64,000 nucleotides of DNA from Haloarcula laminariae. Its GTDB lineage: Archaea > Halobacteriota > Halobacteria > Halobacteriales > Haloarculaceae. The notes beneath the pieces were generated by a model. The model did not search any database, was not told the origin of the DNA, and worked only from the letters and a program-made list of their open reading frames with translations. The translations under genes were made by a program, and so were the position numbers. Positions 22,883-61,946 of the stretch are shown here, one piece after another; the first letter of the stretch is position 1; the number at the start of each line of letters is the position of its first letter. Where the stretch lies: contig NZ_JAMZFY010000001.1 of the NCBI RefSeq assembly GCF_025457605.1, forward strand, positions 1,178,001 to 1,242,000. The letters are read 5' to 3'.

Positions 22883-22898
22883 TTTAGGCCCCCCTAAA
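22883..22898. promoter_or_regulatory. DtxR/SirR-type operator, TTTAGG-N4-CCTAAA
   Basis: A perfect inverted repeat (TTTAGGCCCCCCTAAA) just upstream of the CopD-like start, in the spacer shared with the divergent DtxR-type gene. The same 6-4-6 geometry occurs at 41065, 61895 and 61931. Haloarchaeal iron-responsive DtxR-family repressors bind sites of this type (family knowledge); which regulator binds here is inference. Confidence 0.7.
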
Positions 22899-41064: not shown

Positions 41065-41080
41065 TTTAGGGTGGCCTAAA
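41065..41080. promoter_or_regulatory. DtxR/SirR-type operator, TTTAGG-N4-CCTAAA
   Basis: A perfect inverted repeat (TTTAGGGTGGCCTAAA) between a TATA-like TAAAGTATTTTTA and the ATG of the binding-protein gene on the minus strand; occupation would block transcription. Same geometry as the sites at 22883, 61895 and 61931. Confidence 0.78.
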
Positions 41081-48037: not shown

Positions 48038-48292
48038 CTACAGCTCGTCGCGGTGGTCCGCATAATGTGCCCGACCCTCGTCAGTAATCCAGTAGATGAC
48101 AGTTCTCTCACCGGGCTTTTTTCGGTCCAGGAGACCTGCCTCGACCATCCCGTTGAGCCAATTTCTCGCTGTCTCGCCTTCTACGTCGAACTTTTCAGCT
48201 ATCTCTTTGGTGATGAATGCGGGGTCCGGAGAGACGACGAACTCTTCGAGGACGCGTTCGCGGCTAACCGCTGGATCGGGTCCGCGCGACAC
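48038..48292 (-). CDS. Small winged-helix DNA-binding protein
   Basis: An 84-residue single-domain winged helix-turn-helix protein: SRERVLEEFVVSPDPAFITKE then IAEKFDVEGETARNWLNGMVEAGLL (the recognition helix), with a wing ERTVIYWITDEGRAHY. It is probably a local transcription regulator or antitoxin-like DNA binder; partner genes are not evident. The full frame is used from the ATG at 48292. Confidence 0.75.
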   Translation of the reverse strand: MSRGPDPAVSRERVLEEFVVSPDPAFITKEIAEKFDVEGETARNWLNGMVEAGLLDRKKPGERTVIYWITDEGRAHYADHRDEL

Positions 48293-52246: not shown

Positions 52247-53032
52247 TCACCGGGGCCGGCCGTCGCCGTCGGTCGCGACCGGTCGCTGAGTCTCAGCCAG
52301 CGTCGCCTCGAACGAGGCGACCGATGCGGACGCCCCGTCGAGGGCGCGCTGTTTCTCTATCTCGGCCGCGATGGCGTCGGTGACGCCCGGGTGGTCGAGC
52401 AGGGGGTCGGCGTAGGCCATACCGCCCCGGTCGAGTTCGAGCGCTTCGGGAATCCGCCGCTCGGTCGCCTCGCTACGGCCCAGGAACAGCGGGACCGCGA
52501 CCGCGGAGTCGGTCGGGACGGTGTAGCGGGCGCACTCGACGGCCGGGTTCTGGAGGAGGTAACAGGTCACCACCGCCTCGTAGTCGGACTGGGCTTCCAG
52601 CCGGCTCGCGTGGTAGTCGGTCGTCTGTCGCTGGTAGGGGTCGGAGCTACTGCCGAAGCTCACCAGCACGAGCGACGCGTCGCCGTCGGGCTCGACCTCC
52701 GCTCCGGCCCGCTGTGCGAGTACGTCGGTTATCGCCGGGCTCTGGCCCGGCGGCTCGCAGTAGTGGACGGTGCCCGCGACGGCAGAGAGCGCGGCCGGAA
52801 TCTCGTTTGTCGTGTCCCGCGTGTGCGCGGCGACCATCGGGACGGCGTACACCGTCTCGGCCGTCAGTGATTCGAGCTGGGGGGTGAGCTCGCGTACCGG
52901 CTCGTCCTCGTAGGTCGCTACTGCCACGGAGTCGACGTCGGTACGCGCGCGCAGTCTCGCCGCGTGTGTCTCCAGTAGGTCGTCGGAACCGGCCGCGTGC
53001 CGACCCACGAGGAGTATCGATTCGGTCGTCAT
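52247..53032 (-). CDS. cbiX: Sirohydrochlorin cobaltochelatase CbiX
   Basis: A 261-residue CbiX-type chelatase that inserts Co2+ into sirohydrochlorin at the entry of the anaerobic cobalamin pathway. Two related halves are visible: the first starts ESILLVGRHAAGSDDLLETHAAR-like at residue 4, the second has LVLVSFGSSSDPYQRQ near 145. VYAVPMVAAHTRDTTNEIP near 62 contains the likely catalytic His region. It is on the same strand as cobN-cbiC-cbiE but 138 bases after cbiE, and has its own promoter-like region with a GTTGTACAAC palindrome 12 bases upstream of the ATG. Part of the cobalamin block. Confidence 0.85.
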   Translation of the reverse strand: MTTESILLVGRHAAGSDDLLETHAARLRARTDVDSVAVATYEDEPVRELTPQLESLTAETVYAVPMVAAHTRDTTNEIPAALSAVAGTVHYCEPPGQSPAITDVLAQRAGAEVEPDGDASLVLVSFGSSSDPYQRQTTDYHASRLEAQSDYEAVVTCYLLQNPAVECARYTVPTDSAVAVPLFLGRSEATERRIPEALELDRGGMAYADPLLDHPGVTDAIAAEIEKQRALDGASASVASFEATLAETQRPVATDGDGRPR

Positions 53033-53043
53033 GCCGTCGTCCC

Positions 53044-53053
53044 GTTGTACAAC
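53044..53053. promoter_or_regulatory. Palindrome at the cbiX promoter, GTTGTACAAC
   Basis: A perfect 10-base palindrome 12 bases before the cbiX ATG. The GTTGT/ACAAC arms are the same as those of the inverted repeat between cobN and the ChlID-type gene, though without the 7-base spacer. It may be a cobalamin-pathway operator variant. Confidence 0.4.
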
Positions 53054-53170
53054 TTCATTTGGTTTACCCCAACTACTCTTGGGCTAGACGATGGTGGGGT
53101 CCGTCAAATAGGTTGCGGTGGGTCACCCCCGACAGGACTATGCCCGGACAGACGGAGACGGAGAGCGCGG

Positions 53171-53938: not shown

Positions 53939-54681
53939 GGGTCGGTGGCCGCGGCTGTCCCGTCGGTTCCGAGGGCGACCGCGCCGTCGCGGGCGTCGCT
54001 CGCGACGTGGACGAGTTCGTTCGTCAGCCCCGCCGCGAGCCCGCTGCCGCCGCGGCGGCCGACGGTCGTGACGGCGGGGACGCCGTACTCGTCGGTGACT
54101 TCACGGACGCGCTCGCGGCTCTCGGCGGCCTTCACGAAGCCCACTGGCGTGGCGACGACGGCGGCGGGCCGGGTGCCGTCCTCGATGCAGTCAGCGAGCG
54201 CGAGCGCGGCGGTCGGCGCGTTGCCGACGACCGCGATGGCCCCGTCGTAGACGCCCATCTTGTCGAGTTCCAGCACCGAGGCGGCGGTGCGTGTCATCCC
54301 CGTCTCCGCGGCCAGCTCGGCCCCGTTGCCGATAGCCTTGCGCACCTCGCAGTCGTGTCCCCGGCCGGTGATACCCGCCTTGACCATCGTAATGTCGGTG
54401 ACGATAGGCTGTTCGTCGCGCACGGCGCGGGCGCCGGCCCGGACGACGGCCGACGGCTCGGTTCCCGAGAACCGCACCAGATGTTGGAACTCCGGGTCCC
54501 CGGTGGCGTGGACCGACTTCTGGCGGATGCGGTCGGCCAGCGTCTCGTCGGGGACGAGTTCGCGCACGCGGTCCATGCTCGTCTCCGCGATGTCCATCGC
54601 GTCGCTCGTGGTCGCGCCGAGGTCGGCGTACTCCTCGAAATCATCGTCAGTCGCCGACGCGGCTTCACCGTCAGTCGTCAT
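53935..54681 (-). CDS. cbiC: Cobalt-precorrin-8 methylmutase CbiC
   Basis: A 248-residue isomerase that moves a methyl group from C-11 to C-12 of cobalt-precorrin-8. Landmarks: HATGDPEFQHLVRF near 58, PIVTDITMVKAGI near 92 and GNAPTAAL near 150, followed by TPVGFVKAAESRERV near 178 and GRRGGSGLAAG near 208, including the catalytic His (in SVHATGD). The ATG at 54681 (MTTDGEAAS) is preferred to a frame beginning at 54717. It overlaps the 3' end of cobN by 11 bases and cbiE by 4. Confidence 0.9.
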   Translation of the reverse strand: MTTDGEAASATDDDFEEYADLGATTSDAMDIAETSMDRVRELVPDETLADRIRQKSVHATGDPEFQHLVRFSGTEPSAVVRAGARAVRDEQPIVTDITMVKAGITGRGHDCEVRKAIGNGAELAAETGMTRTAASVLELDKMGVYDGAIAVVGNAPTAALALADCIEDGTRPAAVVATPVGFVKAAESRERVREVTDEYGVPAVTTVGRRGGSGLAAGLTNELVHVASDARDGAVALGTDGTAAATDP

Positions 54682-57600
54682 CGCTGGACACCCCCTGCGG
54701 GTCGGCGGCGCCGGCACGCGCCTCCAGGTCGCCGTCGACGGAGAGGTTCACGTCGCGGATGGCGTCCCGCATCTCGTCGCTGGCGTCCCAGAGCCCGCGG
54801 TCGATGGCCTCCAGCAGCGTGTCGGTGATGCTCTCCAGGGCCCACGGGTTCACGTCCGTGAGCCACTCCTGGCGGTCCTCGTCCAGCGCGTACCGCTCGG
54901 CCACGTCCTCCCAGAGCCGGTCGCTGACGACGCCCGTGGTCGCGTCCCACCCGAGCACCACGTCGACCGTCGTCGAGAGGTCGCCGGCGCCCTTGTAGTC
55001 GTGTTCCTCCATCGAGTCGAGCCACTCGGGGTTGAGCACGCGGGCCCGCATCGCCTTCCGGACCTTCTCCTCGTTGGTGTAGACGTCGACGTTGTCGGGG
55101 TCCGAGGAGTCGCCGACGTAGGAGGCCGGTTCGGTGCCCGATATCTCCGAGACGGCGCTGATGAAGCCGCCGTGGAACGCGTACCAGTCCGAAGAGTCGA
55201 ACTCGTCCTGTTCGGCCGTGTCCTCGATTTTGACCGTCGCCTCCACGCTCCCGAGCCGGCGCTCGAAGGCCTCGTGGGCCTCGCTGACTTTCCCGCGGGA
55301 GCCCATGGCGTAACCGCCCCACTGGACGTACACGTCGGCGAGATCCGAGCGGTCGTCCCAGTTGCCCTCGTCGACGGCCTTGTTCGTCCCCGCGCCGTAG
55401 CCGCCGGGGCGCGTGGTGAACACGCGGGCTTTCGCCGCGCTCTCGGCGTCGCCCTCGTCCATGCCGTCGGCGACGAGGTCCTCGGTCTCCTCTTCGACGT
55501 GTTTCTTGACGTAGTTCATCTCGTGGGGCTCGTCGAGGTCGACCACGGCGTCGACGGCGTCGTGGACGACGCTCGCCGCGGCGGGGAAGGCGTCACGGAA
55601 GAGCCCGGAGACCCGCGTCGTCACGTCGATGCGCGGCCGGCCGAGTTCGTCGAGCGGAATCGGCTCCACGTCCTCGACGCGGCCGGCGTCGCTCCACACC
55701 GGTTCGACGCCCATCAGCGCCAGCACCTGTGCGATGGTCTCCCCGCGCGTGCGAACGGTAGGGGTCCCCCAGACGACGACGCCGATTTCCTCCGGGTAGT
55801 CCCCTTCGTCAGTCTCGTGGCGTTCAAGCACGCCCTCGGCCACCTCGCTGCCCACGTCCCAGGCGGTCTTGGCCGGCACCTTCCGCGGGTCCAGCGTGTA
55901 GAAGTTCCGGGCCGTCGGCAGCAGGTCGACGCCCCCTCTGGTGGGAGCGCCGGAGCCGCCCGGTGGGACGTACTCGCCGTTGAGCGCCTCGGCGGTGCGC
56001 GGTATCTCGTCCGCCGCGCCCGCGACTCGCGGCGCGGCCTCCTCGCAGATGTACGCGAGCGCCTCGCGTAGCCGGTCGTGGGCGCCCGAGGCCGCGCGGG
56101 CGTCCCCGAGCGGGTCGATATCGACCACGAGCAGGTTCATGTTGACTTCGCTACTGCTGTCTTCGAGTTCGCTCTCGGGCACGTCGAAGTCGTACTCGGC
56201 GAGCGTCTCGACCAGGTCGAGGCTCGTCTCGTGGACGCGGTCGGCGGCCTCGGCGTAGGTCATCCCGAGCGCCTCGTCGTACTCGCCGGGGGCGTTCCGG
56301 AGTTTGTCGTAGTCGACGCCGAGCACGCCGGCGACGCTCTCCCGCAGTGAGGGCGCGCCGGGGTTCTCCAGCCGGGTGAGCGCGACCAGATAGTCGACCA
56401 GGCGGTCCTCTGCGGGCGGCTCGCCCATCGTGTGGAGCCCCTTGCGAATCTGGGTGGTCTTCACGTCCGTGAGGTACTCGTGGACGCGCTCTACGAGCGT
56501 GTCGATGTCCACGTCGTCGCCGTCGACCTCGCCCTCCGCCAGCGTCGAGCCGGCTTCGTCCGGGCCGCGCACGTCCGCTTTCTCGTCGATGTCGCCGGCG
56601 ACGCCGAGTTCGACGGCCAGGTCCATCTCGTCGACGACCTTGCGGATTCGCTCCGCGAGGTGCTCGCCGTCGTCGGTCCGGGCGTCCTCCATGCCGGCCT
56701 CGCGGTAGCGGTCCGCGAGTTCCTCCAGGTCGGCCAGGTCGTCGTAGGTGCCGGCGTTGGCCATCACCGGCGTCAGGTAGTCGACGATAGCGGCGTAGGA
56801 CCGACGCTTGGCCTGGGTCCCCTCGCCGGGGTTGTTGACGATGTAGGGGTAGACGTTCGGGATGTCGTCGATGAGCTGGTCGGGCGCGCTCTCGCCGTCC
56901 AGCCCGACGGTCTTGCCCGGCAGCCACTCCAGGCTGCCGTGGGTGCCCAGGTGGACCACCGCGTCGGCCTCGTAGCCGTTGCGGAGCCAGCGGTAGAAGG
57001 CGACGTAGTCGTGGGGCGGCTGGAGGTCAGAGTCGTGGTACACCTTCGAGGGGTCCATCCCGAAGCCCCGGGGCGGTTGGACCGTGACGAGCACGTTCCC
57101 GAACTCGACGCCCGGGATGGCGAAGGGGCGCTCGGGCGGGTCGCCCCACTCCTCGACGACGTTCTCCCGGAAGCCCGCATCGAGCGCGTCGAACCACTCG
57201 CCGTACTGCGCCGGCGAGACGGTGTCGACGCTCAGCTCGCGCACGTCCTCGGGGGCGACCCAGCGGTCCTCAAGGGTGAGCTGTGCGGTCAGGCGCTCGA
57301 CGAGGGACTGCCCGCTGTCGGGCATCGTCGGGCCGGTGCTGTAGCCGCGGGCGTCCAGTTCCTCCAGCAGGTTCACCGTGCTCTCGGGCGAGTCCAGCCC
57401 GAAGGCGGTGCCGATGCCGTCGTCGCTTGGCGGGTAGTTGTGGAGGACGACGGCCACCTGCTTGTCCTCGTTGGGCGTGTGTCTCAGTTCGGCCCAGTTG
57501 ACCGCCAGACGGGCCGCGTGGTCGACCCGGTCGTCGATGGGGAAGTGCTGTTTGGGGGCGCTCCCGATGTCGGCGGCGTCCTCGGTGCGTTCCTTCCCAG

Positions 57601-58558
57601 AAATCGGATGGGTGATGACGTTGCCGTCGAACTCCGGCAGAGCGACCGACAAGGCGAGTTCGAACCCCATTACGCCGGTGTCACTCGAATCGTACCGCGA
57701 GCGCGAGCGCATCGTCGTCACGGTCTGGATGACCGGGACGCCCAGCTTATCCAGGAACACGTCCTCGGCGCTCTGGCCCTCGTCGTCGGCGTCGCGGCCG
57801 CGCTCGTCCATCGACAGCGAGAACATGAACGATGAGCAGACGGCGTCCACGGTCGGGTTGCCGTCGGCGTCGATAAGCCACTCCTCGGTCACTTGCTCGG
57901 CGTTCCACTGGCCCTCGGCGTCGGTCGCCGGCTCGCAGAAGATAGGTAGGGCGTTTGCCCCCTGGGCCTCGATGGCCCGGACCTGCGCGTCGACGTAGCG
58001 GGTGTTCTCGTGTGTCCAGTGGGACTCGTAGAACCACACCGCGACGGTCGGTTTGGCGGGGTCGAACGTCGAACGCAGCTCCTCGTAGCTCGCGCCGGGG
58101 TGGTCGGGGTGGTAGACCCCTTCGGTCGGGAGCGCGACGGGGTCGTCGTAGCCCGGGTCGGCGTCGCCGTACTCGCCGACGAGATAGCGCAGGCAGTTCG
58201 CCACGTTGCTCGCGCCCCCCTTCTCCAGGTAGTCGTAGACGGTCTCCCGGTGTTCCTCGGGGACCGACGTGTCCTCGTAGGCGAAGGCGTCGCCGGTGGC
58301 TTTGACCACGAGCGGGACGCCGGCCTCGCGCAGGCGTTCGACGGCCCGCTCGTAGCCGGGCATGCTGTCCTCGGCCCCGTGGAGCCAGAGGACAACGGCG
58401 GTCGCGTCCGTCAGTTCCTCGACGAACGACTCGACTGCGGGTTCGTCGTCGAGGTCGCTCTCCGAGCGGACGACGAGGTCGGCGTCGACCTCGCCCGCCG
58501 CCCGCTGGACGGCCCCGAGTTCGTTCTCCGTCGCGGTGTAGAGTCCGAGCTGTGGCAT
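54671..58558 (-). CDS. cobN: Cobaltochelatase large subunit CobN
   Basis: A 1295-residue protein, normal for CobN/BchH-type chelatase large subunits, which with AAA/VWA subunits insert cobalt into the corrin ring. Landmarks: KPTVAVWFYESHWTHENTRY near 168, VLHNYPPSDDGIGTAFGLDSP near 370, HLGTHGSLEWLPGK near 540, VYPYIVNNPGEGTQAKRRSY near 570, TYAEAADRVHETSLDL near 770, and a C-terminal half rich in conserved Trp and Asp (ESITDTLLEAI near 1240). It starts the cobN-cbiC-cbiE set and is divergent from the ChlID-type subunit with only 35 bases between the starts. Confidence 0.93.
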   Translation of the reverse strand: MPQLGLYTATENELGAVQRAAGEVDADLVVRSESDLDDEPAVESFVEELTDATAVVLWLHGAEDSMPGYERAVERLREAGVPLVVKATGDAFAYEDTSVPEEHRETVYDYLEKGGASNVANCLRYLVGEYGDADPGYDDPVALPTEGVYHPDHPGASYEELRSTFDPAKPTVAVWFYESHWTHENTRYVDAQVRAIEAQGANALPIFCEPATDAEGQWNAEQVTEEWLIDADGNPTVDAVCSSFMFSLSMDERGRDADDEGQSAEDVFLDKLGVPVIQTVTTMRSRSRYDSSDTGVMGFELALSVALPEFDGNVITHPISGKERTEDAADIGSAPKQHFPIDDRVDHAARLAVNWAELRHTPNEDKQVAVVLHNYPPSDDGIGTAFGLDSPESTVNLLEELDARGYSTGPTMPDSGQSLVERLTAQLTLEDRWVAPEDVRELSVDTVSPAQYGEWFDALDAGFRENVVEEWGDPPERPFAIPGVEFGNVLVTVQPPRGFGMDPSKVYHDSDLQPPHDYVAFYRWLRNGYEADAVVHLGTHGSLEWLPGKTVGLDGESAPDQLIDDIPNVYPYIVNNPGEGTQAKRRSYAAIVDYLTPVMANAGTYDDLADLEELADRYREAGMEDARTDDGEHLAERIRKVVDEMDLAVELGVAGDIDEKADVRGPDEAGSTLAEGEVDGDDVDIDTLVERVHEYLTDVKTTQIRKGLHTMGEPPAEDRLVDYLVALTRLENPGAPSLRESVAGVLGVDYDKLRNAPGEYDEALGMTYAEAADRVHETSLDLVETLAEYDFDVPESELEDSSSEVNMNLLVVDIDPLGDARAASGAHDRLREALAYICEEAAPRVAGAADEIPRTAEALNGEYVPPGGSGAPTRGGVDLLPTARNFYTLDPRKVPAKTAWDVGSEVAEGVLERHETDEGDYPEEIGVVVWGTPTVRTRGETIAQVLALMGVEPVWSDAGRVEDVEPIPLDELGRPRIDVTTRVSGLFRDAFPAAASVVHDAVDAVVDLDEPHEMNYVKKHVEEETEDLVADGMDEGDAESAAKARVFTTRPGGYGAGTNKAVDEGNWDDRSDLADVYVQWGGYAMGSRGKVSEAHEAFERRLGSVEATVKIEDTAEQDEFDSSDWYAFHGGFISAVSEISGTEPASYVGDSSDPDNVDVYTNEEKVRKAMRARVLNPEWLDSMEEHDYKGAGDLSTTVDVVLGWDATTGVVSDRLWEDVAERYALDEDRQEWLTDVNPWALESITDTLLEAIDRGLWDASDEMRDAIRDVNLSVDGDLEARAGAADPQGVSSDDD

Positions 58559-58575
58559 AAGGTTATTAAAACTCC

Positions 58576-58592
58576 GTTGTGGCTAGTACAAC
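58576..58592. promoter_or_regulatory. Inverted repeat between cobN and chlID, GTTGT-N7-ACAAC
   Basis: GTTGTGGCTAGTACAAC occupies most of the 35-base divergent spacer, ending 1 base before the ATG at 58594. The repeat at 60767-60785 before cbtB has the same TTGT-N7-ACAA core. It probably binds one shared regulator controlling both directions. Confidence 0.5.
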
Positions 58593-58593
58593 T

Positions 58594-60723
58594 ATGGTTG
58601 ATTTCGCTGCGGACAAAAAGGCTTCGGGCTTCCGGGGGGTGGTCGGCCAGCGCGACCTCAAGCAGGGGCTGCTCGCCGTCGCGGCCGACGACGACCTCGA
58701 CGGCCTGCTGATTCGCGGCGAGAAGGGGACCGCAAAGTCCACGGCGGTGCGCGGGCTGGCCGAAATGCTGCCCGACCAGCGGGCCGTCGCGGACTGCCCC
58801 TACGGCTGTCCGCCCGACGACCCCGACGCGCAGTGTTCGGACTGCCGGGGGCGGGCGGACCCGCCCGTCGAGACGCGCGCCGCGCCGCTCGTGACACTGC
58901 CCCTGGGCGCCACCCGGGACCGCGTCGTCGGGACCCTCTCGGTTTCGGACGCGATGGACGGCGAGGCGACGTTCGACCCCGGCTTGCTCGCCCGCGCCAA
59001 TCGCGGGATACTGTACGTCGACGAGGTGAACCTGCTCGACGACCACCTCGTCGACGTGTTGCTCGACGCCGCGGCCGGCGGCGTCAACCGCGTCGAGCGC
59101 GACGGGGTCACCGTCTCCCACCCCGCCGAGTTCACGCTCGTCGGCACGATGAACCCCGAGGAGGGGGACCTCCGGCCACAGCTCCGTGACCGCTTCGCCC
59201 TCCAGACCGAGGTCACGGCGTGTGACGACATCGAGGACCGCGTCGCCATCATCGACGGCGCGCTCGACGGGCGCGACGACGGCGGCCGGGAGTCTGAAGC
59301 GTCCGCGGGTCGCCCGGCGGAGGAGCGACTCGCCACGGCCAGGGAGCGGCTCCCCGAGGTGACGCTGGCCCGGGAGTTCCGCGAGGAGATAGCGGAGCTC
59401 TGCCGGGACGCCGGACTCGACGGCCACCGCGGCGACATCGCGACCGCCCGGGCAGCCCGCGCCTTCGCCGCGCTCGACGACCGGACCACCGTCCTCCAGT
59501 CGGACGTCGAGCGCGCCGCTGAGTTCGCGTTGCCCCACCGGCTCCAGTCCGAGCCCTTCGAGTCGCCCCCGGAGCTCGACGACGTGCTGGACGACCACTT
59601 CGAGGACGACAGCGACGAGACGGACGAGTCGGATGCGGAGAGCGGAGAGGAGGGAGACGAGGCGGACGGCGATGACGGGTCGGCCGAGGGTGAGGGAAAC
59701 GAGACCGGCGCAGACGGGGACGGAGAGGCCGAGCCTGGAGAGGGCGACGCCGAGCGCGACCAGTCGCCCGAGAGTGAGGGAGAAGCGCCCGACGCCGCCG
59801 AGGACGGCGACGCGGGAAACGGTCCGGCACCGGAGCCGGCCGAGGCGGGCGACGGGGAGACCGGTAACAGCGGCGGGGAGGACAGCGACGGGGAAAGCGA
59901 CGACGGCGACAGTGAGGATGGCAACGAGGACGCGACACCCCTGCTCCCTGGCCAGTCGCGGGCCGGTGTCGGTGACAGCGCGAGCCCGGAAGTCGAGCCT
60001 CCGGCGGTCGACGCCGACGGCGGCCCATCGAGCGGCCGCGCGACGGCCACCGGCACCACTCGCGGGGCCTCGGTCCGGACCGAGCGGGCGGGCCCCGACG
60101 ACGACGTGGACGCGGCGGCCTCGGTCAGAGCCGCCGCACAGCGGGGGGCCGACGAGGTCGGCTCACGGGACCTCCGCCAGTCCGTGCGGGCCGGCGACGC
60201 CGGCACGCTCGTCGTCTTCGCCGTCGACGCCAGCGCGTCGATGCGCCCGGCGATGCGAACGGCGAAAGGCTGCGTGCTGGAGCTGCTGAAAGACGCCTAC
60301 CAGGCCCGCGACGAGGTGGCGGTCGTCACGTTCGCGGGCGACGGCGCCGACGTGGTGCTCCCGCCGACGAACAGCGTCTCGCTCGCGGCGCGACACCTCA
60401 AGGAGCTCCCGACCGGGGACCGGACGCCCCTGCCCGCGGGACTGACGACCGCGGCCGAGGTGGTGACACAGGCGGACCCCGACGCCGCCGTCGCCGTCGT
60501 CGTCACCGACGGCCGGGCGAACGCGGCTGACGGGAGCCCGGTCGACGGAACCCGCGAGGCGGCTCGGCGGCTCGGCGCGGTCGCCGACCGGACCGTGGTC
60601 GTCGACGCCGGGACGGAGGAACGGGCCGCCCTCACCGGAGCCGTCGCCGAGGCCACCGACGGGTCTGTCGTCCCCCTGTCGGCGCTCAGCGCCGAGCGAA
60701 TCGACGCCGCCGCGGGGCAGTAA
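58594..60723 (+). CDS. ChlID-type cobaltochelatase subunit (AAA+ plus VWA)
   Basis: A 709-residue fusion of the two small subunits of Mg/Co-chelatase. N-terminal AAA+ domain (about 10-315): LIRGEKGTAKSTAVRG (Walker A) near 38, YVDEVNLLDDHLVDVLLDAAAGG near 142 (Walker B and following), and SHPAEFTLVGTMNPEEGDLRPQL-like sensor region near 175. A very acidic linker (about 335-460, runs of D, E, G and S) leads to a VWA domain with MIDAS motif DASAS near 545. Works with CobN on cobalt insertion. ATG at 58594 chosen; a GTG at 58579 would add 5 residues and overlap the inverted repeat. Confidence 0.87.
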   Translation: MVDFAADKKASGFRGVVGQRDLKQGLLAVAADDDLDGLLIRGEKGTAKSTAVRGLAEMLPDQRAVADCPYGCPPDDPDAQCSDCRGRADPPVETRAAPLVTLPLGATRDRVVGTLSVSDAMDGEATFDPGLLARANRGILYVDEVNLLDDHLVDVLLDAAAGGVNRVERDGVTVSHPAEFTLVGTMNPEEGDLRPQLRDRFALQTEVTACDDIEDRVAIIDGALDGRDDGGRESEASAGRPAEERLATARERLPEVTLAREFREEIAELCRDAGLDGHRGDIATARAARAFAALDDRTTVLQSDVERAAEFALPHRLQSEPFESPPELDDVLDDHFEDDSDETDESDAESGEEGDEADGDDGSAEGEGNETGADGDGEAEPGEGDAERDQSPESEGEAPDAAEDGDAGNGPAPEPAEAGDGETGNSGGEDSDGESDDGDSEDGNEDATPLLPGQSRAGVGDSASPEVEPPAVDADGGPSSGRATATGTTRGASVRTERAGPDDDVDAAASVRAAAQRGADEVGSRDLRQSVRAGDAGTLVVFAVDASASMRPAMRTAKGCVLELLKDAYQARDEVAVVTFAGDGADVVLPPTNSVSLAARHLKELPTGDRTPLPAGLTTAAEVVTQADPDAAVAVVVTDGRANAADGSPVDGTREAARRLGAVADRTVVVDAGTEERAALTGAVAEATDGSVVPLSALSAERIDAAAGQ

Positions 60724-60766
60724 GCGCCCCCGACCAAGCGCTGTGGGTCGCAAGTTTTACAATCTA

Positions 60767-60785
60767 ACTTGTTCAATAGACAAGT
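60767..60785. promoter_or_regulatory. Inverted repeat before cbtBA, ACTTGT-N7-ACAAGT
   Basis: A perfect 6-base-arm repeat, 9 bases before the cbtB ATG and just after a TATA-like GTTTTACAA near 60754. The TTGT-N7-ACAA core is shared with the cobN/chlID spacer. Its position would suit a repressor. Confidence 0.5.
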
Positions 60786-60794
60786 AGAATTTCA

Positions 60795-60983
60795 ATGCAG
60801 GCCGAGACTGACACCGTCCGTCGACGCGTCGACATCGCCACCAGCACCCTCTCGGGCACCCAGATGGCCCTCGGACTGGGCCTCCTGGCCGCTCTCGCGT
60901 TCACGCTCCTGTTCGTCCAGGACCCGATGGTCCACGACTCGCTCCACAACTTCAGGCACGGCGCCGGCATCACCTGCCACTGA
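60795..60983 (+). CDS. cbtB: Cobalt transporter subunit CbtB
   Basis: A 62-residue protein with one membrane helix (TQMALGLGLLAALAFTLLFV, about residues 22-41) and a C-terminal metal-binding tail HDSLHNFRHGAGITCH rich in His with one Cys, the hallmark of CbtB. It works with CbtA in cobalt uptake. The stop codon overlaps the cbtA ATG as TGATG. A candidate operator lies immediately upstream. Confidence 0.93.
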   Translation: MQAETDTVRRRVDIATSTLSGTQMALGLGLLAALAFTLLFVQDPMVHDSLHNFRHGAGITCH

Positions 60984-61693
60984 TGGCGACCGACTACCTC
61001 ACCCGCGGGGCGCTCTCGGGCGCGGCCGGCGGGCTGGTGTACGGCCTGTTCCAGGCGACCGTCGGTAACAGCTTCGTCGCCGGGCTGGAGACGTTCGAGT
61101 CGGGACACGGCCACGGCGCCGGCCCGGCCGTCGACGGCGTCACGACGGCGGCGGTCAGCGTCGGCGGCGGCGTCCTCTGGGGGCTGCTGTTCGGCATCGC
61201 GGTGTTCGGGGTGGGCTACTACTTCCTCGAACCCGCGCTCCCGGGGACGGGCGCGACGAAGCGGCTGGCGCTCGCGGCCGCCGGCTTTCTCACCGTCTCG
61301 GGCGCGCCGTGGCTCGTCCTCCCGCCCCAGCCCCCGGGGGTCGAGCAGGCGCTCCCGACCGAGACGCGCATGCTCTGGTACGGCGGCCTGATGGCGCTTG
61401 GCGCGCTCGTCGCCGGCCTGTGCGTGTCCTCATATCGACGAACCGGGGACCGACATCCGGCGATAACGGCCGTCGCAACGGCACTGCCGCTCGCTCTGCT
61501 CGCCGTCCCGGTCGCCCTCGCTCCGGCGAACCCCGTCACCGGCCCCGTGCCGGCGGCGCTGGCGACGGCGTACCGGTGGACCGTCGTCGTCGGCCAGATG
61601 GGACTGTGGGCGACTGTCGCCGCCGTCCACGCCCGGCTGGGCGACCCCGCGCTCGTCACCGACGGGACGGAGTTCGCGGCGACGGCCGACTGA
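60983..61693 (+). CDS. cbtA: Cobalt transporter subunit CbtA
   Basis: A 236-residue membrane protein with about five to six helices. It starts MATDYLTRGALSGAAGGLVY, has ESGHGHGAG near residue 35 (His pair that may bind metal), WLVLPPQPPGVEQALPTETR near 110 and a Trp-rich last helix (GQMGLWATVAAVHARLG near 210). It is translated with cbtB through the TGATG overlap. It supplies cobalt for the cobaltochelatase encoded upstream. The family call is by motif and gene pair. Confidence 0.9.
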   Translation: MATDYLTRGALSGAAGGLVYGLFQATVGNSFVAGLETFESGHGHGAGPAVDGVTTAAVSVGGGVLWGLLFGIAVFGVGYYFLEPALPGTGATKRLALAAAGFLTVSGAPWLVLPPQPPGVEQALPTETRMLWYGGLMALGALVAGLCVSSYRRTGDRHPAITAVATALPLALLAVPVALAPANPVTGPVPAALATAYRWTVVVGQMGLWATVAAVHARLGDPALVTDGTEFAATAD

Positions 61694-61894: not shown

Positions 61895-61910
61895 TTTAGG
61901 GCCGCCTAAA
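61895..61910. promoter_or_regulatory. DtxR/SirR-type operator, distal site of the DUF5059 gene
   Basis: TTTAGGGCCGCCTAAA, a perfect 6-4-6 inverted repeat just upstream of the TATA-like TTTTTATT at 61920. Paired with the site at 61931 (36 bases between starts). Confidence 0.78.
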
Positions 61911-61930
61911 GTTCGACGGGTTTTTATTGT

Positions 61931-61946
61931 ATTAGGCTGGCCTAAA
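61931..61946. promoter_or_regulatory. DtxR/SirR-type operator, proximal site of the DUF5059 gene
   Basis: ATTAGGCTGGCCTAAA, one mismatch from the perfect repeat, lying between the TATA box and the ATG at 61951. With the distal site it brackets the promoter, the expected layout for tight repression. Confidence 0.75.

Follow-up and report, generated by a model that had tools for sequence, protein, structure and literature searches.

A predicted tandem-dyad operator of the haloarchaeal B12 regulon and a DUF7839 winged-helix protein as its candidate regulator

The cobalt insertion and cobalt import genes found in a 64-kb stretch of the Haloarcula laminariae genome (64,000 nucleotides, hereafter the window) share a predicted operator. 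The repeated unit is a palindrome, TAANACAA-N6-TTGTNTTA; as a rule, two such dyads lie 20-21 bp from each other. Sequence comparison strongly supports both this operator and the regulon that it delimits. Taken as a whole, the element is probably the tandem-dyad operator of a haloarchaeal B12 regulon, with a DUF7839 protein as candidate regulator and with repression in response to B12. The position of the sites and the set of target genes point to B12 as the ligand and to repression as the sign of the regulation.

The preliminary description reported repeats at cobN/chlID, at cbtBA and before cbiX, and all of them are present. The cobN/chlID spacer (58559-58593, 35 bases), bounded by the cobN ATG (ending at 58558, minus strand) and by the ChlID ATG (58594), contains GTTGT-GGCTAGT-ACAAC at 58576-58592, as read directly from the letters. 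The cbtB promoter contains ACTTGT-TCAATAG-ACAAGT at 60767-60785, with the cbtB ATG (60795) ten bases on. The third repeat, GTTGTACAAC (53044-53053), precedes the cbiX ATG (53032, minus strand) by 12 bases. TTGT-N7-ACAA is found three times in the window for 0.18 expected. In the whole genome (3.69 Mb, 9 contigs), it is found at 10 places against 16 for the reversed control, i.e. without enrichment. Among relatives, the exact string is kept in 6/61 cobN/chlID spacers and in 18/60 cbtB promoters. TTGT-N7-ACAA was rejected as the unit because of this poor conservation and of the lack of genome-wide enrichment. The strings first noticed are real, but they were read in the wrong register: TTGT-N7-ACAA is the junction of two dyads in tandem, each of the form given above (Table 1).

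Table 1. Operator dyads, genes and candidate regulator (positions refer to the window, or to its continuation in the adjoining stretch L142)
Feature	Coordinates	Strand	Sequence	Remarks
Dyad 1, cobN/chlID operator	58563..58584		TTATTAAA-ACTCCG-TTGTGGCT	Left arm coincides with the likely chlID TATA box; read directly
Dyad 2, cobN/chlID operator	58584..58605		TAGTACAA-CTATGG-TTGATTTC	Extends over the ChlID ATG and the likely TATA box of cobN
Repeat first noticed at cobN/chlID	58576..58592		GTTGT-N7-ACAAC	Joint between dyads 1 and 2 rather than the unit
Dyad 1, cbtBA operator	60755..60776		TTTTACAA-TCTAAC-TTGTTCAA	Left arm coincides with the likely TATA box
Dyad 2 (weak), cbtBA operator	60776..60797		ATAGACAA-GTAGAA-TTTCAATG	21 bp from dyad 1; reaches the cbtB ATG
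Repeat first noticed at cbtBA	60767..60785		ACTTGT-N7-ACAAGT	Junction of dyads 1 and 2
Dyad 1, cbiX operator	53045..53066	-	TAAACCAA-ATGAAG-TTGTACAA	Lies 13-34 bp before the cbiX ATG and differs from the consensus at 3 positions
Dyad 2 (weak), cbiX operator	53065..53086			20 bp from dyad 1
cobN, cobaltochelatase large subunit	54671..58558	-		PF02514; TIGR02257 above cut-off
ChlID-type chelatase subunit (AAA + VWA)	58594..60723	+		Profile matches
cbtB	60795..60983	+		PF09489
cbtA	60983..61693	+		PF09490
cbiX	52247..53032	-		PF01903
Candidate regulator, 270 residues	73395-74207 (L142:11395-12207)			Window-equivalent position, 9.4 kb past the window end; divergent from cbiT

Conservation in close relatives was checked on 60 orthologous loci and holds for the corrected unit. 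The gene order cobN <- -> chlID-cbtB-cbtA is found in nearly all of them and the length of the cobN/chlID spacer is conserved (33-36 bp in most of the 60 relatives). CAA-N6-TTG is kept in 60/61 cobN/chlID spacers, none of which shows an N5 or N7 spacing. ACAA-N6-TTG is kept in 53/60 cbtB promoters (N5, none; N7, one), and TTTACAA and the TT of the right arm are invariant in the alignment of these promoters (n=47). In the chlID dyad, the TTG falls within the second and third codons of ChlID. In 61/61 rows, T is the last base of codon 2, despite a frequency of about 7% for T-ending Val codons in the same genes, which indicates a constraint on the DNA and not on the protein. The register of the operator is made plain by the spacers between cbiT and the regulator gene, where TAAAACAATTTTGGTTGTTTTA, whose arms are perfectly palindromic, recurs in many genomes. 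When the cbtB, cobN/chlID and cbiX promoters are re-read in this register, the same unit emerges. A second matrix match is found 20-21 bp from the first one in 53/61 cobN/chlID spacers and in 52/60 cbtB promoters (the matrix is described below). The dyad arms coincide with the likely TATA boxes of chlID, cobN, cbtB and cbiT.

The matrix was trained solely on sites of cbiT and of nrd (class I ribonucleotide reductase) genes; the nrd sites of L287-L289 were included and L290 was left out. Its three best matches in the 64 kb are at cbiX (53045-53066, 19.96), cobN/chlID (58584-58605, 19.39) and cbtB (60755-60776, 16.25), in agreement with the earlier proposal of one operator common to these three places. 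The fourth-best place in the window scores 7.9; for comparison, no score above 10.5 was reached in 30 Markov-random windows. An earlier sequence model (R1), built from 47 cbtB promoters, was searched in 32 genomes of the genus. Apart from cbtB and the cobN spacer, its matches are weak, and most are no farther than about 20 kb from the cob cluster. Those that were opened correspond to the start of a cbiH-type methylase operon, to cbiT, to the stretch preceding a cbiX-like gene and to the spacer between cbiT and the divergent regulator gene. R1 scores the cob sites other than cbtB weakly, yet it led to the cbiT and cbiH sites.

In the Haloarcula laminariae genome, the operator with at most three mismatches is found at 17 places (30 for the reversed control), 5 of which lie together in the cob region, in a stretch of 20 kb. 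Since this mismatch-tolerant pattern shows no genome-wide enrichment, the weight rests on its concentration in the cob region and on its conservation. The sites extend past the window, to cbiH and cbiT: the only perfect operator of the genome is at cbiH, and the spacer that separates cbiT from the regulator gene holds two that overlap in tandem. Genes for cobalt import and insertion belong to the regulon, as had been proposed, but the regulon is not limited to them. It also includes the cbiT and cbiH operons, the spacer of the candidate regulator in many genomes and the ribonucleotide reductase that works without B12, the latter in other species.

Some other features of these regions were recorded. 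Between cbiG and the cbiH operon, there is a small ORF for which Pfam gives no match (window-equivalent 69736-70029; L142:7736-8029), and the perfect operator lies at the start of this ORF; several Haloarcula genomes carry an SDR-type gene in its place. In the contig G022:C2 (247.6 kb), the start of the cbiH operon and the genes upstream are found twice, in near-identical form (about 22 kb, L153, and about 234 kb, L154), as are matches to the DUF7839 gene; either the region is duplicated or the replicon is circular and its assembled ends overlap. The window contains palindromes of the form TTAGGNNNNCCTAA at 22883-22898, 41065-41080, 61895-61910 and 61932-61945, the pair at 61895-61945 directly preceding a DUF5059 protein (61951). 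These resemble the operators of haloarchaeal DtxR/Idr-type iron regulators.

The operator is not restricted to the genus. Exact AANACAA-N6-TTGTNTTA is found in 82/293 Halobacteriales genomes, against only a handful of matches with the reversed control. In nearly all loci opened, the exact site precedes cob/cbi genes or B12-independent nrdA/nrdR. Fifteen larger loci were fetched, 14 of which were picked around an exact site; in 14/14, this site lies directly before the cbiT operon or nrdA/nrdR. Among the smaller loci, exact sites before other genes are found in L228, L230 and L233. In L228 (G228:C5, about 73 kb), the exact operator lies just before a gene encoding a 2-oxoacid dehydrogenase E2 (PF00198). 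Among 30 genomes sampled from other families, 13 carry cbiT, and 13/13 of these cbiT genes have the operator (L344 and L346 of this sample are one gene). In all 13 loci, the start of cbiT holds the best matrix match, with scores of 15.6-39.1, and in many of them another dyad follows 20 bp on; in those read in that orientation, the sites lie about 26 bp before the ATG.

The ribonucleotide reductase genes would give the regulon its B12 logic. The Haloarcula laminariae genome encodes the B12-dependent enzyme NrdJ (TIGR02504, above cut-off). In the genus, genomes with chlID mostly encode a single PF02867 protein (NrdJ only); G021 has a second, split one. Four complete genomes of the genus that lack chlID (G016, G018, G020, G023) encode a class I NrdA in addition, and each of the four nrdA genes has the operator upstream (1-3 mismatches). 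At the NrdJ loci, no comparable operator was found with the matrix (best of 26, 11.2). In bacteria, B12 riboswitches control the genes that make B12, those that transport cobalt and the B12-independent ribonucleotide reductase. Here, one operator is found on B12 synthesis and cobalt transport genes, and the B12-independent isozyme is included, as class I nrdA/nrdR carry it. A riboswitch was itself considered and rejected, since no Rfam RNA family, including the cobalamin riboswitch RF00174, matches in the window or in the adjoining stretch L142.

The protein that binds the operator is probably the DUF7839 winged-helix protein (or its paralog where this protein is missing), given its position, the operator in the shared spacer and its conserved recognition helix. 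It is encoded at C1:1251395-1252207 of the Haloarcula laminariae genome. Its N-terminus is a MarR-like winged helix (PF12802 MarR_2, 31.7 bits, cut-off 27) and its C-terminus a DUF7839 domain (PF25211, 3.7e-33, 114 bits, cut-off 27); the sequence of its ligand-binding region matched no solved structure. The spacer between cbiT and the DUF7839 gene carries the operator in Haloarculaceae and in families f4, f11, f12 and f13, the two genes being divergent in these four families also. Neither the window nor, in relatives, the 8 kb around chlID were found to hold a conserved regulator. A small HTH-like ORF (48038-48292), also considered as a regulator, has no Pfam match and was discarded.

DUF7839 proteins were sorted into two classes: class A is linked to the cob cluster, and class B is a paralog located elsewhere, about 42-52% identical to the Haloarcula laminariae protein. 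According to the coordinates read, some forty genomes have a class A gene at no more than 10-20 kb from chlID. In genomes without chlID, they adjoin nrdAB, cbiA or cbiP in the cases opened (exceptions: G001, G020, G065). The class B gene has neither cob neighbours nor an obvious operator of its own; in L192, L193, L195 and L203, it adjoins a conserved metallophosphoesterase-like gene and not B12 genes. In many Haloarcula genomes and in genus g15, operators are kept and only the class B paralog is present. As the recognition helices of classes A and B are near-identical (TSQAVSDY / TSQAVSEY), class B may serve as regulator where class A is missing.

The signal could be cobalt or another metal instead of a corrinoid, with the same operator and the same DUF7839 regulator. 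Such a signal would suit cbtBA and the chelatase genes, which are among the targets, and the winged helix of the candidate weakly resembles DtxR-type metal regulators (SloR, 2e-5). It is nevertheless unlikely: the operator is found at class I nrdA, whose product takes the place of a B12 enzyme and does not require cobalt, also in genomes without chlID; the DUF7839 gene lies by cbiA, cbiP or nrdAB in such genomes; and no invariant Cys or His was found in the protein alignment. It is likewise rather improbable that another transcription factor reads the operator, the DUF7839 gene being a mere target or neighbour. In several families, the DUF7839 gene is linked to the cluster and divergent from cbiT, with the operator between the two genes, the linkage with nrdAB, cbiA or cbiP persists where chlID is missing, and the two DUF7839 classes share almost the same recognition helix. 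On the other side, DUF7839 proteins are present in 293/293 genomes searched (and in M. jannaschii and M. acetivorans), so that presence or absence cannot identify the regulator, and the genomes with only the paralog keep operators without a cluster-linked copy.

Two further readings would do without a B12 operator. If the conservation reflected only the overlapping BRE/TATA elements of leaderless divergent genes, the match of the arms to the likely TATA boxes at chlID, cobN, cbtB and cbiT would be expected. The fixed N6 spacing, the perfect 22-bp palindromes in distant families, the restriction of the sites to cob and nrd genes and the T-ending codon 2 inside the ChlID coding sequence all speak against it, and this reading is strongly disfavoured as very improbable. 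The element could also be taken for an NrdR box, as some sites precede nrdR-nrdA. The nrdR gene is absent from 31/32 genomes of the genus (that of Haloarcula laminariae and 30 others) and sites are found on cob genes; the absence from the genome under study refutes this reading for its cob genes, and its probability is negligible.

The dyads cover the likely TATA boxes and starts of cobN/chlID, cbtBA and cbiX and, further along, those of the cbiT and cbiH operons. Under the preferred reading, that of a B12-responsive operator bound by DUF7839, this protein would most likely bind when B12 is plentiful; as the dyads are two helical turns apart, two dimers could sit on one face of the DNA. The bound protein would block TBP/TFB, and B12 synthesis and cobalt import would be shut off. 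In species with the B12-independent NrdAB, this enzyme would be shut off too, leaving the B12-dependent NrdJ. Modelling in Halobacterium salinarum suggested that the second regulator of the cob genes, besides TrmB, is an activator and not a repressor (PMC3794607), which counts against the sign proposed here. The regulator is most likely the protein counterpart of the bacterial B12 riboswitch, i.e. a B12-responsive repressor. Chances are about even that DUF7839 is a new class of protein corrinoid sensor with a riboswitch-like role across Halobacteriales, perhaps also in methanogens (M. jannaschii, M. acetivorans). If so, DUF7839 would switch B12 synthesis and cobalt import, and it would also decide which ribonucleotide reductase is used, the B12-dependent or the B12-independent one. 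The analysis yields an exact operator, a list of targets spanning the order and a single candidate gene family, and one DNA site links the class of ribonucleotide reductase that a genome carries with the loss of its B12 synthesis.

Among known systems, TrmB of Halobacterium salinarum acts on cob/cbi genes through the motif TACT-N7-8-GAGTA and answers glucose; a TrmB-dependent second regulator of the cob genes was inferred in the same study (PMC3794607, 2013). The element conserved here, TAANACAA-N6-TTGTNTTA, differs from this motif. Riboswitches are known from few archaea. The targets of the haloarchaeal operator resemble those of the bacterial cobalamin riboswitch regulons (RF00174); the haloarchaeal element is a DNA dyad over the core promoter with a candidate protein, whereas the riboswitch is an RNA aptamer. 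The papers searched mention neither DUF7839 nor a CBL-box. Rodionov et al. (2003) reportedly predicted, for some archaea, a CBL-box read by a hypothetical B12 regulator; the regulator protein itself was reportedly not identified. This prediction makes doubtful the earlier remark that no archaeal cobalamin operator of this form had been described, and the idea of an archaeal B12 operator is not itself new. The CBL-box, a predicted DNA operator on archaeal B12 genes, is possibly the same element as the one described here. The apparent novelty lies in the exact tandem operator and its occurrence across the order, in the nrd genes among its targets and in the protein proposed to bind it.
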